Below are positions 1,598 through 10,181 of a stretch of DNA of 64,000 nt, piece after piece. The notes under the pieces were generated by a model. That model was not told where the DNA came from and made no database searches. It saw only the letters and a list, made by a program, of their open reading frames with translations. A program made the translations under genes and the position numbers. This stretch comes from Natronorubrum thiooxidans. GTDB taxonomy: Archaea > Halobacteriota > Halobacteria > Halobacteriales > Natrialbaceae. The stretch covers positions 372,001-436,000 of the forward strand of contig NZ_FTNR01000001.1 in assembly GCF_900156475.1 (NCBI RefSeq). The letters are read 5' to 3'. Position 1 is the stretch's first letter. Each line of letters opens with the position of its first letter.

Positions 1598-2671
1598 TCA
1601 GAGCGCGAGGTAGCCCGCGTTGGGGAGGAGCCCGAGCAGATAGAGGATGCCGAGGAGGAACATGAAGATCGCGATCGCCATCGCCGGCGGGTCGACGTGG
1701 GTCCCGGAGTGGGAGTAGAACATGCGCTGGGTCACTTCGGCGAACAGGCCACTGATCGCGCCGAACGCGCCGGCGGCGAGTAACGCGACCGGCTCGCTCC
1801 CGATGACGGGCATCGCGAGAATCGCCCCCACCGCGCCGAGCAGCGTGATGTGGTGTGTGACAGGGATCTTCTCGACGCCGAGGTTGAGAAACAGCAGGCT
1901 GATCGCGGAGATCGCATAGCCCATGAAGATGCTTCCCGTCTCGAGCCAGATGTAGCCGCCGAGGACGCCACCGATGAGGCCGATGGTGACGATGCCGGAC
2001 CACTTGTACTGGTGGGGCAGCCACGGTTCGGTCGCCAGTCGGTTGGTCTCGGTGCCGCCATCTGTTGCCATGCGTTTCTCACCGCGCTCGAACGGCGACA
2101 TGTCGAGAATGCCTTCGCCGGCGATCGTGCCGACGAGCGGATACCCGAACGCGATTCGGGCTAGAAACGCCGTCGCGACGACCGACAGCGCGATGTTGTC
2201 TGTCGGGAAGCCGACGCCGTTCATGACCTGGGTGATGAGCATCCCGGCTGCGCCGAAGACCGCACCGACGGCAAGGATGTCGGGTTTGGTCCCGAACGCA
2301 TAGAGGATGTTCTTCCCGAAGTGGTAGTCCCAGCCGGCGGGCTCCATCTCAGGGTATTTTCGGCCGGCGTAGGCCGTCGCGGCGACACCGCCGGCGAAGG
2401 CGACGTGCGGACCGGTCACCATCCCGAATCCGATTACGCCGGTGATATCTGCGGCGAGTCCACCGGTTTCGACGGCCTCGAGCGTGCCGAGTTCTCGCTG
2501 GAGGATCGCGACGCCTTCGCCGAGGAAAACGACAAAGCCCGTAAAGATGAACGCGGGCAGCGCACCGATCGCCGCGCCGAACGCGCCACCGGCGAGGGCG
2601 GCGATCAACAGGAGCAGGAACTGTTCGACCTCCAGCCCGATGACCGGGAGCTGCAGGAGTGCCTGAAACAT
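1598..2671 (-). CDS. polytopic membrane protein of the glycerol operon, putative glycerol transport protein
   Basis: A 357-residue protein with about eight to ten hydrophobic, glycine-rich membrane segments and one central hydrophilic loop (about residues 193-220). It starts 3 bp after the glpK stop codon on the same strand, so it is almost certainly co-transcribed with glpK. In Haloferax a membrane protein encoded next to glpK has been discussed as a putative glycerol facilitator, and this protein looks like its counterpart. It shows no NPA box of the MIP/aquaporin GlpF family, so if it moves glycerol it belongs to a different fold. Transport is inferred from position only. Confidence 0.7.
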   Translation of the reverse strand: MFQALLQLPVIGLEVEQFLLLLIAALAGGAFGAAIGALPAFIFTGFVVFLGEGVAILQRELGTLEAVETGGLAADITGVIGFGMVTGPHVAFAGGVAATAYAGRKYPEMEPAGWDYHFGKNILYAFGTKPDILAVGAVFGAAGMLITQVMNGVGFPTDNIALSVVATAFLARIAFGYPLVGTIAGEGILDMSPFERGEKRMATDGGTETNRLATEPWLPHQYKWSGIVTIGLIGGVLGGYIWLETGSIFMGYAISAISLLFLNLGVEKIPVTHHITLLGAVGAILAMPVIGSEPVALLAAGAFGAISGLFAEVTQRMFYSHSGTHVDPPAMAIAIFMFLLGILYLLGLLPNAGYLAL

Positions 2672-2674
2672 CGG

Positions 2675-4210
2675 TTACTCCTCCGTCGCCCAGTTCAGTG
2701 AGCGCTCGACGGCCTCGCTCCAGCGATCGTATCGCTTGTCAGCCGTTTCTCTGCCCATCTCCGGCTCGAACTCGCGGTCGATCTGCCAGTTGTCGCGCAG
2801 GCTGTCGACGTCATCCCAGTAGCCGACGGCGAGGCCGGCCGCGTAGGCCGACCCCAGTGCCGTCGTCTCGTCGACGACCGGGCGGACGATCTCCGAGTCG
2901 ATGATGTCCGACTGGAGCTGACAGAGGTAGTTGTTCTTGACCGCGCCGCCGTCGACTTTCAGGCTCGTCATCTCGATGCCCGAATCGGCCTCCATCGCCT
3001 CCGCGACGTCACGCGTCTGGAAGGCAATCGACTCGAGGGTCGCCCGAACGACGTGTTCTTTCCGGGTGCCGCGAGTCATCCCGACGATGGTGCCGCGTGC
3101 GCGCTGATCCCAGTGGGGCGCGCCGAGGCCAGTAAAGGCCGGGACGACGTAGACGCCGTCGGTCGAATCGACGCTACGGGCGAGTTCCGCGGTCTCGGAG
3201 GGGTCGTCGATCAACGACATGTCCTCGAGCCACTCGATCGCCGCGCCGGTGATGAAGATCGAGCCCTCGAGGGCGTACTGGACGTCTTCACCCGAGCGCT
3301 GGAAGCCGATCGTCGTCAGGAGGCCGTGGTCGCTCTCGACGGCCTCGTTGCCGGTATTCATGAGGAAAAACGACCCCGTGCCGTAGGTGTTCTTGGCGTC
3401 CCCAGCGTCGAAACAGGTCTGGCCGAACAGAGCTGCCTGCTGATCGCCGAGTGCGCCGGCGACGGGCACTTCGGCCTCGAGGAATCCTTCGGTATCGGTC
3501 GTCCCGTAGGTGTCTTCGTCACTCGAGGGTCGCACCTCGGGCAACATCGCCTCGGGGATCGAGAACTCCGCGAGGAGTTCGTCGTCCCACTCGAGGTCGT
3601 GGATGTTGTAGAGCATCGTCCGCGAGGCGTTCGTCACCTCGGTGATGTGGTTGCCCGTGAGGTTGTAGATCAGCCAGGTGTCGATCGTCCCAAAGAGCAC
3701 CTCGCCTTTCTCCGCGCGGTCACGGATATCGTCCGGCCGCGATCGCTCGAGTTTGATCGGGTCGGCGTTGTCGAGCAGCCACTCCGCTTTCGTCGCCGAA
3801 AAGTAGGCGTCGGCCTCGAGGCCGGTCTTCTCGCGGATGGTGTCGACCATGCCGTCGGCCTCGAGGGCCTCGACGCGGTCGGTCGTGCGCCGGTCCTGCC
3901 AGACGATCGCGTTGTGGACCGGCCGACCCGTGTCAGCGTCCCACAGCAGCGTCGTTTCGCGCTGGTTGGTCACGCCAATCGCCTCGAGCTGGTCGGGACC
4001 GATCCCCGCCTGCCCGAGTGCCTGCGTGATGACGGCTTTGGTGTTTTCCCAGATCTCCCGCGGATCGTGTTCGACCCAGCCGGGTTCTGGATATACCTGT
4101 TCGTGTTTTTCGTATGCGTTCGCGACGACTTGCCCGCCGTGGTCGAATACGATAAAGCGTGTGCCAGTCGTCCCCTGGTCTACCGCACCGACGTATGTCT
4201 GTGCTGTCAT
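2675..4210 (-). CDS. glpK: glycerol kinase
   Basis: A full-length 511-residue FGGY-family kinase that phosphorylates glycerol to sn-glycerol 3-phosphate with ATP. The N-terminal phosphate-binding motif DQGTTGTRF (residues about 11-19) and the family regions GVTNQRETTLLWD, NAIVWQDRR and KVDGGAVKNNYL are visible. It is divergent from glpABC, with the promoter region 4211-4519 between them, and is followed at once by a membrane protein. Haloarchaea take up glycerol released by Dunaliella and use GlpK plus the GlpABC dehydrogenase as the main catabolic route. Confidence 0.97.
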   Translation of the reverse strand: MTAQTYVGAVDQGTTGTRFIVFDHGGQVVANAYEKHEQVYPEPGWVEHDPREIWENTKAVITQALGQAGIGPDQLEAIGVTNQRETTLLWDADTGRPVHNAIVWQDRRTTDRVEALEADGMVDTIREKTGLEADAYFSATKAEWLLDNADPIKLERSRPDDIRDRAEKGEVLFGTIDTWLIYNLTGNHITEVTNASRTMLYNIHDLEWDDELLAEFSIPEAMLPEVRPSSDEDTYGTTDTEGFLEAEVPVAGALGDQQAALFGQTCFDAGDAKNTYGTGSFFLMNTGNEAVESDHGLLTTIGFQRSGEDVQYALEGSIFITGAAIEWLEDMSLIDDPSETAELARSVDSTDGVYVVPAFTGLGAPHWDQRARGTIVGMTRGTRKEHVVRATLESIAFQTRDVAEAMEADSGIEMTSLKVDGGAVKNNYLCQLQSDIIDSEIVRPVVDETTALGSAYAAGLAVGYWDDVDSLRDNWQIDREFEPEMGRETADKRYDRWSEAVERSLNWATEE

Positions 4211-4519
4211 TAGTGGTCACCCGTGTGTTACTGCTCACGCGACGTCTTTATCGACGGTCGCATGCTACTGGTAAACAATTTTGACGATCATTATAAATGT
4301 TCCTGTAAGTGTAATAGCCCCATTATATTGCTCTAACAATATTACGGCTATCTCTTCAAAACAGCCGAGTGGTTCACCCGGAAATCGTCGTTTCATCGGA
4401 AATAGGGGCCGAACTGTCGTCAGAGAATGTGTGATGTTCTCACTCATGTTCATTTGTTATGGGCGTTGATGGAGCGTCGATAAAATAAAGAGCAGGGAGA
4501 ACGAGGTACGAACCAAGGG
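4211..4519. promoter_or_regulatory. divergent promoter region between glpK and glpA
   Basis: A 309-bp gene-free, AT-rich stretch. The same core element CGTCGATAAA occurs facing each gene: on the plus strand at 4475-4484 before glpA, and on the minus strand at 4247-4256 before glpK. Each copy lies about 36-46 bp upstream of its start codon. This matches archaeal TATA/BRE placement and suggests matched promoters for the two arms of glycerol catabolism. The central part (about 4262-4440) is AT-rich and may hold regulator sites; the short ORFs there have no coding support. Confidence 0.6.
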
Positions 4520-6223
4520 ATGACAACCCACACTGACGTCCTCGTTCTCGGCGGCGGGTCGACCGGCTGTGGCATCGCCAGGGATCTGGCGATGCGCGGC
4601 CTCGAGGTGACCCTCGTCGAACGGGGCAATCTGACGGAGGGGACGACGGGCCGGATGCACGGGCTCTTACACAGCGGGGGCCGATACGCCGTCTCCGATC
4701 AGGCGAGCGCGAGAGAGTGTATCGAGGAAAACGAAATCCTCCGGGAGATCGCCGGCCACTGCGTCGAAGCGACCGGCGGCCTGTTCGTCCAGCGACCCGA
4801 GGACTCGGACGACTACTTCCAGGAGAAACTCGAGGGCTGTCGCGAGTGTGGCATTCCCGCGCGCGTTCTCTCGGGACGGGAAGCGCGCGAGATCGAACCC
4901 TATCTCGCAGACGACGTCAAACGCGCGATCGAGGTTCCCGACGCCGCGGTCGATCCGTTCCGACTCTGCGTGGCGAACGCGATCGACGCCGAAACCCACG
5001 GTGCACGCATCGAGACCCACGCCGAGGTGATCGACCTCCTGCGTGATGGCGACGACATCCACGGCGTGGAAGTGCGCCACGAGTCTGGGCCAGGCAAACG
5101 AACCCACACCGTCGCCGGCACGACTGAGGAGATCACGGCCGACTACGTCGTCAACGCGACGGGCGCGTGGGCCGGCCAGATTGGAAACATGGCCGACCTC
5201 GAGATCGAAGTCCGCCCGTCGAAGGGTGTCATGACGATCATGAACGTCCGGCAGGTCGACACCGTCATCAACCGCTGTCGGCCGAAAGGCGACGCCGACA
5301 TCATCGTCCCCCACGAGACGACGGCGATCCTCGGCACCACCGACGAGGAGGTCGACGATCCGGACGACTACCCCGAAGAGCAGTGGGAAGTCGACCAGAT
5401 GATCGACACCCTCTCGGAACTCGTCCCGATCCTCTCGGAGGCGCGGACGATCCGCTCCTTTTGGGGTGTTCGCCCGCTGTACGAGCCGCCGGGAACTGGC
5501 ACCACGGACCCGACGGACATCACGCGGGAGTTCTTTTTGCTCGATCACGCCGAGCGCGACGGCGTCTCCGGCATGTCCACCATCGTCGGCGGGAAGCTGA
5601 CGACCTACCGCGCGATGGCCGAAGAGATCGCCGACCACGTCTGTGACAAACTCGGCGTGCGTGCCTCGTGTGCCACCGCGGACGAACCGCTTCCCGGCAG
5701 CGAGACTATCGAGACCCTCGAGGCCGGCATGGACGACTTCGGGCTGCGCTCGCCGGTCGCCCGCCGGAGCAAACAGCGCCTCGGCAGTCGCGCAAGCGAG
5801 GTGCTCGACACCGACGCGGCGAATCCGGTCGTCTGCCAGTGTGAGGGTGTTACGCGCGCGGAGATTCAGGACGCAATCACCCAGTCGGGAACGGATCTGA
5901 ACGCGGTCCGCATCCGTACCCGCGCCTCGATGGGCAACTGTCAGGGCGGCTTCTGCTGTCAGAATATGGCGAACGAGCTTCACCCCGAGTACGACGAGGA
6001 GACCGTCCGGGCAGCGCTCGACGAACTGTTTCAGGAGCGCTGGAAGGGCGAACGCCACGCCCTGTGGGGTGAACAGCTCTCGCAGGCGATGCTCAACTAC
6101 GCCCTGCACGCGACGACGATGAACCGCGACCGCGACCCCGCAAGCGAGTCGGGTGACCTCGAGTACGCGGCGTTCGACAGCGGTCGGCAGACGCCCCAGC
6201 GGCGTGCCGACGGGGGGAACTGA
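4520..6223 (+). CDS. glpA: anaerobic-type glycerol-3-phosphate dehydrogenase subunit A
   Basis: A 567-residue FAD-dependent catalytic subunit oxidising sn-glycerol 3-phosphate to dihydroxyacetone phosphate. The FAD-binding motif GGGSTGCG is at residues about 10-17. After the DAO domain comes a BFD-like iron-sulfur region with Cys439-x-Cys441 (VCQCEG) and Cys474-x4-Cys479-Cys480 (NCQGGFCCQ). The start ATG at 4520 lies about 36 bp after a TATA-like box. One base separates its stop from the glpB start, so glpA-glpB-glpC form an operon. It corresponds to GpdA1 of Haloferax, the route required there for growth on glycerol. Confidence 0.96.
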
Positions 6224-6224
6224 G

Positions 6225-7514
6225 ATGGCCATCGAAGACGACGTCCTCGTTCTCGGCGGCGGGCTCGCCGGGACGACGGCGGCCCTCGCCGCGGCGGACC
6301 AAGACGTGCAGGTTCGACTCGTGACGCACAAACAGAGCACGCTGCGCCACGCCAGCGGGCTGATCGACGTGCTCGGCTACACGCCCGCGGGGGACGGCCC
6401 GCTCGTCGACCCCTTCGACGCCCTCTCCGATCTCCCTGACGGCCACCCCTACGAGCGCGTCGGAGTCGAGGCCGTCCGCGAGGCGCTCTCGTTTTTCGAC
6501 GACGTTGCGGGCGAGGCGTACGCCGGCGCACACACGGGCGCGAACGCACTCGTCCCGACCCACGGTGGCACGGTCAAACCGACCGCGCGCTACCCGGCTT
6601 CGACGGCCGCCGGGCTGGCGAGCGACGACCGAGACACGCTGCTGGTCGGCTTCGAGACCCTCCCGGATTTCGAGGCCCCACTGGCTGCAGCCCACCTCGA
6701 GGCCGCCGGCGTGCCGTTTACGGCTCGAGGCGTCACGCTGTCGTTCCCCGGTATCGTCCGCGACGACGCGAAGGTGACGCGGTATGCCCACCTGCTCGAC
6801 CAGAACGAATCCGTCTCGACGGGCGCGGGCGAAACCGGCGCGCGCGAGGCGCTCGCTGCGGCCGTCGAGGCCCACGTAGAGGACGAGTCTCGAGTCGGCT
6901 TCCCCGCAATCTTGGGCGACGAGCACGCCGCCGAAGTGCGTGCCGACCTCGCGGACGCCCTCGGCGTCGACGTCTTCGAAGTCCCAATGGGGCCGCCCAG
7001 CCTGCCGGGACTGCGACTCGAGGATTTACTCTACGATGCACTCGAGGATGCGGGCGTGCGGGTGACCTCGGGCGTGCCGGTGGTCGAGTACGAGACGGGC
7101 ACGGACGGCGACCGAATCGATCACGTCGTCGTCGACCGCACCGGCTCGAAACTCCCCCACCGCGCCGACCAGTACGTCCTCGCGACGGGCGGACTCGTCG
7201 GCAAGGGCGTCCGTTCGGAACGCGAGCGGGTGTACGAACCGCTCTTCGACTGTCACGTTCCCCACGCCGCCGACCGCTACGACTGGTTCGTCGACGACGT
7301 CTTCGGCGACCAGCCCTACGCGCGCTTCGGCCTGCGCGTCGACCGTGAGTTGCGACCGCTGACCGCCGACGACGAGCCGGAGTTTTCGAACCTGCGCGCG
7401 GCTGGGGCGGTTCTGAGCGGCTACGACTTCGCGGCGGAGAAATCCGGCGGCGGCGTCTCGCTCGCGACGGGCTACGTCGCCGGGACACGCGCCGGCGAGG
7501 AGGGCGGCGAATGA
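6225..7514 (+). CDS. glpB: glycerol-3-phosphate dehydrogenase subunit B
   Basis: A 429-residue flavoprotein. The N-terminal Rossmann motif LVLGGGLAGTTAAL is visible, and a long FAD/NAD-binding-like fold follows, ending in an ATGYVAGTRAG segment. GlpB binds FMN/FAD and links GlpA to the membrane-anchored GlpC. I chose the ATG at 6225 because it follows the glpA stop by one base and gives the family N-terminus [13 protein letters not shown]; the longer reading frame starting at 6153 would overlap glpA heavily. It is co-transcribed with glpA and glpC. Confidence 0.94.
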   Translation: MAIEDDVLVLGGGLAGTTAALAAADQDVQVRLVTHKQSTLRHASGLIDVLGYTPAGDGPLVDPFDALSDLPDGHPYERVGVEAVREALSFFDDVAGEAYAGAHTGANALVPTHGGTVKPTARYPASTAAGLASDDRDTLLVGFETLPDFEAPLAAAHLEAAGVPFTARGVTLSFPGIVRDDAKVTRYAHLLDQNESVSTGAGETGAREALAAAVEAHVEDESRVGFPAILGDEHAAEVRADLADALGVDVFEVPMGPPSLPGLRLEDLLYDALEDAGVRVTSGVPVVEYETGTDGDRIDHVVVDRTGSKLPHRADQYVLATGGLVGKGVRSERERVYEPLFDCHVPHAADRYDWFVDDVFGDQPYARFGLRVDRELRPLTADDEPEFSNLRAAGAVLSGYDFAAEKSGGGVSLATGYVAGTRAGEEGGE

Positions 7515-7589
7515 CCGCTGATCGACACAGTGTGCGATCGAGCGACTCGAGCAATAAATCGAGTGCGAGCGGCCGAAACAGGTGATTTC

Positions 7590-9017
7590 ATGAGCGACGC
7601 AGAACACCCGACCGACGACGGTGCACCGGGCGACTACCCAATCGACGACAGCGTATCGAGCGACGACGAGTTCGAACCGATTCAGGTCTTCCCCGAGGCC
7701 GAGGAGATGGATCTCCGGCCGGGAGCCGACAACTGTTATAAGTGTTCGACCTGCGACACCAACTGTCCCGTCGCCGAGGTCGACGACGAGTTCCCCGGCC
7801 CGAAGTTCCAGGGGCCCGAACAGTGGCGACTCAAGCGCCAAGAGGATCACGACATCGACGACTCCGTGATGAAGTGTTCGAATTGCATGCGCTGTGATAG
7901 CGCCTGCCCCTCCGAGGTCCCGCTCTCGCAGATGCACAACACGGCCCGGGGGGAGTACGTCGACGAGCACATGAACAAACTCTCTCGAGAGTACATCCGC
8001 AACCGAATCCTGGCGAACTACCGGCGACTCGCGCCGCTGGCCGCAGCCTTCCCCCGGACGGCGAACTTCGTGATGGGGTTGTCGGTCACCCAGTGGATCG
8101 GCGAGAAGACGCTGGGAATCACGAGCGAGCGGGAGTTCCCCGAGTTCGCGACCGAGACGTTCCGGGAGTGGTGGACGAAACGAGGTGGCAACGCCACCTC
8201 GAAACAGCGAGCGCAGGACGCGCGAGCACAGCGAGGTGATGCGAAGAGCCAGAGCGAGGACAAACGCATCGCCTACTTCCACGGCTGTTACTCGAACTAC
8301 AACACGCCCGAAGTCGCCAAGGCGCTCGTCCGCGTCTACGAACACTTCGGTTACGAGGTCATGGTCCCCGAGCAATCCTGTTCGGGAACGCCGATGTTCG
8401 CAAACGGCATGCTCGAGGACGCCCGTCGGGCCGCCGAGACGAACGTTCGCGAACTCGCAGCCGCAATCGAAGACGGGGCAGATATCATCGCCTCCTGTAG
8501 CTCCTGTTCGATGTCGATCCGCCAAGAGTACCCCGAACTGTTCGACTTCGAAGGGACCGACGACGTCGCCGCGAACACCTGGGACGCCGTCGAATACCTC
8601 CGCGTCCACGAAGATCTCGAGGGCGAACTCGAGGGCACCTCCCTCGAGGACGAGTCTTTTGCCTATCACGCACCGTGTCATTCACGTAACCAGGGCCTCG
8701 ATGGACAGACGATCGAAGTGCTAGGCGCAATCGATGGCATCGACGCACACGACGTCGGTGATTCCTGTTCGGGGATCTCCGGCACGTACGGCTGGAAGGA
8801 GGAGAACTACGAAACGTCGATGAAAATCGGCGAGGAAATGTTCGAGCACATGGACGACGCGCCCGCCGAGACTGGCCTGACGGAGTGTCCGACCTGCTCG
8901 ATGCAGATGGAACACGGCACCGGCTACGAGATCAAACACACTCTCGAGATCCTCGCGGCGGCGCTCGTGGGAACGGACCACGACGTGGACCAGCGCCGGG
9001 GCCAGGAGACGAGGTAG
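7590..9017 (+). CDS. glpC: glycerol-3-phosphate dehydrogenase subunit C (Fe-S, membrane-associated)
   Basis: A 475-residue protein with two ferredoxin-type cysteine clusters near the N-terminus (CYKCSTCDTNCP and CSNCMRCDSACP, residues about 50-110). Two CCG domains follow (QSCSGTPMF, then CHSRNQGL with DSCSGISGTYG). It passes electrons from GlpAB to the quinone pool. The ATG at 7590 is preceded by a GGTGA ribosome-binding site, unlike most leaderless genes here, which supports it as an internal operon gene and decides the start. The acidic N-terminal extension of about 35 residues is typical of haloarchaea. Confidence 0.94.
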   Translation: MSDAEHPTDDGAPGDYPIDDSVSSDDEFEPIQVFPEAEEMDLRPGADNCYKCSTCDTNCPVAEVDDEFPGPKFQGPEQWRLKRQEDHDIDDSVMKCSNCMRCDSACPSEVPLSQMHNTARGEYVDEHMNKLSREYIRNRILANYRRLAPLAAAFPRTANFVMGLSVTQWIGEKTLGITSEREFPEFATETFREWWTKRGGNATSKQRAQDARAQRGDAKSQSEDKRIAYFHGCYSNYNTPEVAKALVRVYEHFGYEVMVPEQSCSGTPMFANGMLEDARRAAETNVRELAAAIEDGADIIASCSSCSMSIRQEYPELFDFEGTDDVAANTWDAVEYLRVHEDLEGELEGTSLEDESFAYHAPCHSRNQGLDGQTIEVLGAIDGIDAHDVGDSCSGISGTYGWKEENYETSMKIGEEMFEHMDDAPAETGLTECPTCSMQMEHGTGYEIKHTLEILAAALVGTDHDVDQRRGQETR

Positions 9018-10181
9018 ATGGAGTTACAAGAGCGTATCGCCCGACGGCGATCCTCACGAACGGGACGGCAGATCATCGTCGAACGCGACCACCTCAGCCC
9101 GGTCGTCCATCGTCCGGAGCCAGTGGGCCGTGGCCCAGTCTTAGAGCAGTTGCTCGACGCCCTCGAGTCGGTGTTCGACGGCGAGTTACCGCCGCCGGTT
9201 TCGGTCGTCGGACCCGCCGGCTCCGGAACGTCGGCGATCGTCACCGCCCTGTTCGACGCGTTGAACGAGCGACTGAGCGAGCCAACCCGAACGATCGGCA
9301 CGACCACCCGTGCTGGCAGCACCGGTCCAGTGACGTGGTTCGTCTACGTCGATGGACGACGCGTCGAGAGCGCCTTTGCCTTCTACCGGGCCGTACTGTC
9401 GGTCCTCGCGTCCGATCCTGTCCCCAAAAGCGGCGTCGGTACTGACGAACTGTGCGAGCGGCTTTATGAGCGACTCGACCGGCCGAACCATCGGGCAGTG
9501 ATTGGGATCGACCACCACGACGAGCCCGAAGCCCTCGCGTACGATCGGATTCACGAGCTGCTCGAGCCAGTCGCGGACAGCGTCTCGACCGTCGCCGTCG
9601 GCCAGACCGTCCCCGACGACTGGGGCGACGAGCAGCCGACCGTCCCAGTGCCAGCCTACCGCCACCACGAACTCGTCGATGTCGTAACCGACCGCACCTC
9701 GAGTGGCCTCGCGGCAGGTGCCATCGATCACGAGTCGATTCGCGACGTCGCGACGTGGGCCGACGGCAACGCACACGACGCGCTCGCCGCCCTGTTCGGC
9801 GCTGGCGTGCTCGCAACCGACGACGGCAGCGATCGGATCGAATCACAGCACCTCGAGACCGCGTGGGCCGACGTCCCCGAAGACGGTGTCCACCTCGATC
9901 GGGTGCTTTCGCTCTCGGAGACGCGCCAGCGGGTGCTGTCCGATCTCGTCGCCGTCGGGTCAGTCGAGAGGCCCATCCGCGAGGTCGCCGCGGAGATCGC
10001 CGATCGGTCCTCGCTGACTGCCGGGACCGTCAAACGGTTTCTGTACGAACTGGCGGATCGAGGCATCATCGAACGCGTTCCGCTGCCCGCAGACGGAAGC
10101 GGCCGTCGACCGAGCGCCGTTGTCCCGCGGTTTCCAACGATCGCCTTCCAAGCACTGGGACCGACTACGAACGGCGACTGA
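9018..10181 (+). CDS. Orc1/Cdc6-like AAA protein with degenerate Walker A
   Basis: A 387-residue protein with the layout of archaeal Orc1/Cdc6: an N-terminal segment ending in a P-loop region, an AAA core, and a C-terminal winged-helix region (about residues 300-380, with EVAAEIADRSSLTAGTVKRFLYEL). The P-loop reads GPAGSGTS at 65-72, so the catalytic Lys is replaced by Thr71. A Walker B-like IGIDHHDE lies at 162-169. ATP hydrolysis is therefore doubtful, and a role as replication initiator is unlikely. The start codon directly follows the glpC stop codon, so it is read with the glycerol operon. Its function is unknown. Confidence 0.8.
   Translation: MELQERIARRRSSRTGRQIIVERDHLSPVVHRPEPVGRGPVLEQLLDALESVFDGELPPPVSVVGPAGSGTSAIVTALFDALNERLSEPTRTIGTTTRAGSTGPVTWFVYVDGRRVESAFAFYRAVLSVLASDPVPKSGVGTDELCERLYERLDRPNHRAVIGIDHHDEPEALAYDRIHELLEPVADSVSTVAVGQTVPDDWGDEQPTVPVPAYRHHELVDVVTDRTSSGLAAGAIDHESIRDVATWADGNAHDALAALFGAGVLATDDGSDRIESQHLETAWADVPEDGVHLDRVLSLSETRQRVLSDLVAVGSVERPIREVAAEIADRSSLTAGTVKRFLYELADRGIIERVPLPADGSGRRPSAVVPRFPTIAFQALGPTTNGD

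Follow-up and report, generated by a model that had tools for sequence, protein, structure and literature searches.

An Orc1/Cdc6-derived protein as a probable regulator of glycerol catabolism in haloarchaea, with a candidate operator at the glp promoters

The window analysed here, a 64,000-nucleotide stretch of the Natronorubrum thiooxidans genome (contig NZ_FTNR01000001.1, forward-strand positions 372,001 to 436,000), carries a glycerol catabolism (glp) locus, in which the final gene of the glpABC cluster encodes a protein of the Orc1/Cdc6 type. The genes of the locus are:

1598–2671, minus strand: membrane protein, the usual neighbour of glpK, without a significant Pfam family
2675–4210, minus strand: glpK, glycerol kinase, divergent from glpA (TIGR01311)
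4520–6223, plus strand: glpA, glycerol-3-phosphate dehydrogenase subunit A (TIGR03377)
6225–7514, plus strand: glpB (start estimated from the family match)
7590–9017, plus strand: glpC (start estimated; the open reading frame opens at 7530)
9018–10181, plus strand: Orc1/Cdc6-derived putative regulator gene, 387 aa (open reading frame, Pfam, AlphaFold model, structure matches)

An earlier, sequence-only reading of this DNA had placed the start codon of the orc-like gene against the glpC stop codon, and this is exact: the ATG at 9018 lies immediately 3′ of the glpC TAG at 9015–9017. The same reading proposed to look for the glpC link in other Natrialbaceae, where it holds, the gap between the two genes being mostly −4 to +5 nt. 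At the other end of the locus, the membrane protein of 1598–2671 adjoins glpK in most haloarchaea and is a candidate glycerol transporter or facilitator.

The orc-like protein matches the Pfam domains AAA_16 and Cdc6_lid, and its AlphaFold model, built on 89 orthologues and paralogues, has a pLDDT of 92.7. In this model an AAA+ domain, a Cdc6 lid and a winged helix are united in one fold, as in the archaeal Orc1/Cdc6 initiators, and the closest solved structures are indeed archaeal Orc1/Cdc6 proteins (2qby, Z 23.3; 2v1u, Z 22.9). Against the haloarchaeal initiator family TIGR02928, however, the protein scores 75.6 bits, far below the curated cut-off of 181.3. The winged helix, which the sequence-only reading had described as kept, is present:

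9909–10133, plus strand: C-terminal winged helix-turn-helix, approximately residues 298–372 (invariant T337, R340, Y343, E344, R353)

The kind of winged helix is another matter. It matches IclR/MarR domains weakly (E 2e-4) and has no match to Cdc6_C (PF09079) at E<=1, whereas that domain is recognised in two canonical Orc proteins of the same genome, at E 1e-19 to 1e-22; judged by these profiles, it is of a type other than Cdc6_C. Over the 89 aligned sequences 27 columns are invariant, including residues of the winged helix and the N-terminal arginines R6, R9 and R10, and T95, T97 and R98 of a TTTRA loop are invariant as well. Some Natrialba orthologues (L024, L025 and L097) are about 507 aa long, with an insertion in mid-protein near residue 205.

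The sequence-only reading was also correct in seeing a threonine, Thr71, at the position of the Walker A lysine. Two regions of the nucleotide site are of interest:

9210–9233, plus strand: Walker A, GPAGSGTS (residues 65–72), Thr71 at the Lys position (sequence and orthologue alignment)
9498–9524, plus strand: Walker B region, Asp165-His166, with the catalytic Glu replaced by a His that is invariant in the family (alignment)

Thr71, whose conservation in other Natrialbaceae that reading proposed to check, is conserved: it is found in 102/103 Natrialbaceae-type orthologues (a class with which three Thr sequences of borderline identity were grouped for these counts), with a single origin at the root of the Natrialbaceae clade and one reversion to lysine (L099). 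The lysine is retained in 50/50 of the other glp-linked orthologues and in 7/7 paralogues. Alignment with canonical Orc proteins of the same genome reveals more extensive damage that is common to the whole family: Walker B has gone from DE to DH, with D165 and H166 invariant; the sensor-1 SN is absent; the LSxKVxSSL segment bearing the arginine finger is deleted; and the sensor-2 motif GDARxA has become GxAHDA, with loss of the sensor-2 arginine. Since these motifs are gone family-wide and the lysine is kept outside the Natrialbaceae clade, loss of the catalytic motifs preceded loss of the lysine. The ATPase is, as far as motifs can tell, disabled across the entire family and not by way of Thr71. 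Hence the earlier suggestion of a lost ATPase stands, but Thr71 as its cause does not, and Thr71 as the cause of a functional switch is rejected too, because Lys-bearing orthologues share the locus and the operator described below.

Orthologues were found in 107/125 genomes of the family and 275/392 of the order. Their presence follows that of the glycerol-3-phosphate dehydrogenase: among genomes with a strong GlpA, 270/311 have the gene and 41 lack it, and among those with weak or no GlpA, 1/68 has the gene and 67 lack it (Fisher p 2e-44, relatedness not accounted for; 13 genomes with intermediate GlpA are omitted from the cross-tabulation). In the 41 genomes that have glp but lack the gene, a profile search returned just Orc-type matches of lower score, the best at 98 bits; as these genomes run glp without it, the gene is dispensable in some lineages. 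Every orthologue inspected is at a glp locus, and the arrangement varies: the gene may close the glpABC cluster, follow glpK and the membrane protein, stand divergent from glpA or lie between glpK and glpA. In one genus (g87) the gene is kept beside glpK and glpABC is elsewhere. The sequence-only reading had held that orthologues with a normal Walker A lying next to origins of replication would refute it; the normal lysine is found outside the Natrialbaceae, but proximity to origins is not found among the inspected orthologues. Genomes of another genus, g70 (e.g. G319, G235 and G369), have two family members each, one possibly away from glp.

New here is an inverted repeat, TTTAY-N19-RTAAA, that was found to be common to both glp promoters when the regions upstream of glpA and glpK were compared. 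The promoter features are:

4247–4275, minus strand: proposed glpK operator, TTTAC-N19-ATAAA, covering the predicted start of transcription
4289–4299, minus strand: glpK TATA-like box, TTTATAAT on the minus strand, at a fixed distance from the operator
4457–4484, plus strand: proposed operator of the glpA promoter, TTAT-N19-ATAAA, its right half overlapping the TATA-like ATAAAATAAAG

In the whole window the motif occurs solely at the glpK (4247–4275, both strands) and glpA (4457–4484) promoters, against a chance expectation of 0.11. The spacing is equally distinctive: with a spacer of 19 the repeat is found 181 times in glpA/glpK promoters (150 bp each, 114 loci) and 17 times outside them in 1.9 Mb of sequence, every other spacing tested gives <=12 promoter sites, and no spacer-19 site was found in 19 loci without the gene. 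In the form TTAY-N-RTAAA, with spacers of 16–22, the repeat is present at the glpA promoters of 56/60 Natrialbaceae and 29/39 other gene-bearing genomes, and at the glpK promoters of 57/59 and 35/48, respectively. In gene-lacking genomes it is present at 0/18 glpA and 1/17 glpK promoters, and in the sole exception (L200) the locus sequence stops inside glpC, so that absence of the gene is itself uncertain. The TATA-to-operator distance at glpK is 23 bp in 60/61 and 25/30 promoters. Two gene-bearing loci of one family (f10; L139 and L165) have glp promoters of a different sequence, perhaps with a variant operator that co-evolved. A wider regulon in the organism's own genome was considered and rejected, the strict pattern occurring at 4 places, with no excess over a reversed control pattern; of two non-glp matches inspected, one lies at the end of an open reading frame and the other overlaps the TATA box belonging to a TFB gene. 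Within this genome, glp would be the only credible target.

The motif was defined on the glpA and glpK promoters that were compared first, and the out-of-sample evidence comes from three sets alone: the remote glpA promoters, the paralogue loci and the gene-lacking genomes added later. Where the gene is lost, so is the motif: both are present at 95 loci, neither at 33, the gene without the motif at 7 and the motif without the gene at 0, or, counted from the gene, the motif is found at 95 of the 102 gene-bearing glp loci and at none of the 33 gene-lacking ones. Some of the 7 gene-bearing loci without the strict motif have near matches. In 21 further gene-lacking genomes none of the readable promoters has the motif. 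A tree of GlpA shows 13 changes between presence and absence of the gene, and there are 8 independent pairs on supported branches, of which 7.6 on average are concordant (median p ~0.008); the number of independent losses is thus modest. The site also persists where glpA lies apart from the gene. In 4/4 genomes of one genus the remote glpA promoter retains it, with the orc-glpK pair 0.8–1.7 Mb from glpABC or on a separate contig. Paralogues at 36–39% identity lie behind a gene for a UgpC/MalK-type ABC ATPase at the 2 loci inspected for it (L093 and L095), and at L092, L094 and L095 the same repeat sits about 90 bp upstream of the solute-binding-protein gene that heads the ABC operon, downstream of a TATA-like box. 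Across L092–L095 the paralogous orc lies at approximately 7990–9180, and the repeat is at the operon promoter in 3/4 loci. At another locus, L089, the paralogue adjoins prolyl-tRNA synthetase.

Locus conservation, co-occurrence with GlpA and an operator that co-evolves with the gene lend strong support to the notion, put forward in the sequence-only reading, of a former initiator turned transcription factor of the glycerol operon. Taken with the fold and the loss of ATPase motifs, these observations make it, in our judgement, very probable that an ATPase-dead protein derived from Orc1/Cdc6 controls glycerol catabolism through the operator at the glp promoters. An ex-initiator would no longer start replication or hydrolyse ATP and would instead control the glycerol genes, binding TTTAY-N19-RTAAA at the divergent glpK and glpA promoters, probably as a dimer by means of its winged helices. 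Occupancy of the operator would repress glpK and glpA, and a glycerol-derived signal would relieve it; the sensor might be the TTTRA loop (T95, T97 and R98) or the pocket that once held the nucleotide. The sign of control follows from the geometry. With transcription starts predicted from the position of the TATA box, the glpK operator covers the predicted start because the TATA box begins 23 bp before it, and since at glpA the right half of the operator lies over the TATA-like element, a repressor is the most likely. Activation from the same repeat is the alternative, and an unlikely though serious one: the near-invariant TATA spacing at glpK would suit contacts with TBP/TFB, and glycerol induces glp about twofold in Haloferax (PMC11962113), but a site downstream of the glpK TATA box and over the start, and one overlapping the TATA-like element of glpA, suit blocking. 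We favour repression over activation, and with the gene last in glpABC, autoregulation is to be expected.

Binding of the repeat by the orc-like protein is, of course, deduced, and the protein could act on other partners; the repeat might then be the operator of another regulator, with a different role for the Orc-like protein in the glp cluster. The repeated joint loss of gene and motif, and the recurrence of the same repeat at the promoter of the ABC operons that carry paralogues, make this improbable. More improbable still is that the protein initiates replication to this day, or is dormant in that role, from an origin that lies in the glp locus by coincidence. The Orc1/Cdc6 fold, the abundance of orc genes in haloarchaea and the existence of dormant origins (PMC4595724) speak for it. 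Against it are the missing Walker B Glu, sensor 1, arginine-finger segment and sensor-2 Arg, the lack of a Cdc6_C match and the low TIGR02928 score, in a genome where 19 other loci exceed that cut-off. Nor does the gene have ORB-like inverted repeats in its surroundings, where a single short inverted repeat lies 3′ of it, and the conserved sites track the glp promoters even at 0.8–1.7 Mb from the gene. The lost motifs, the conserved locus and the remote operators are our grounds for rejecting the origin hypothesis. Least credible of all is a decaying pseudo-initiator that came to lie behind glpC by chance, with the threonine as neutral decay: the active-site motifs are degenerate, but 27 columns are invariant across 89 sequences, those of the winged helix and R6, R9 and R10 among them, the gene is retained in 107/125 genomes of the family, and it stays with glp through rearrangements.

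Among haloarchaeal regulators of carbon metabolism there are likewise GlpR (of the DeoR family), GfcR, TrmB and TbsP of Haloferax; GlpR controls sugar genes, and to our knowledge none of the four is of Orc type. The Haloferax volcanii counterpart is presumably HVO_1537 (orc15), which by locus numbering probably adjoins glpABCK (HVO_1538 onward) and which is probably an orthologue. HVO_1537 figures among the listed Orc homologues to which no origin is assigned (PMC2841640), and our literature search met with no published function for it. In 2025 the way in which haloarchaea control their glycerol genes was described as incompletely understood (PMC12853182), and our literature search found no paper tying an Orc protein to them. 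With the canonical haloarchaeal Orc1/Cdc6 proteins of TIGR02928 the protein shares the succession of AAA+ core, Cdc6 lid and C-terminal winged helix; unlike them, it scores below the cut-off, is not at origins, lacks the Walker B Glu, the sensors, the arginine finger and a Cdc6_C match, and has extra conserved N-terminal arginines and the TTTRA loop. A close parallel is Orc1-2 of Saccharolobus islandicus, which regulates the DNA damage response, is no initiator and is switched through ATP (PMC9738581). Here, too, an Orc1/Cdc6-fold protein would serve as a transcription regulator rather than an initiator. Unlike the global Orc1-2, however, ours is proposed to act locally, on metabolism, through a 29-bp inverted repeat as its own operator and with its ATPase site dismantled, and switching by ATP binding and hydrolysis would not be expected of it, the catalytic motifs being absent.

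A broader reading, tentative and in our view falling somewhat short of probable, is that haloarchaea have a family of Orc1/Cdc6-derived, ATPase-dead, one-operon regulators sharing the operator TTTAY-N19-RTAAA just after the TATA box, with the initiator's nucleotide pocket turned metabolite sensor and with glp and, for the paralogues, UgpC/MalK-type ABC transporters as targets. Origins are predicted for about two thirds of haloarchaeal orc genes, which leaves roughly one third without, and Haloarcula hispanica fragments with ORB-less cdc6 genes failed to replicate (PMC3528665); our analysis offers a probable function for some of that third. Glycerol is a main carbon source in brines, and a candidate regulator and operator of its use can now be named. 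If true, a replication initiator would have lost its ATPase and become a transcription factor of metabolism.
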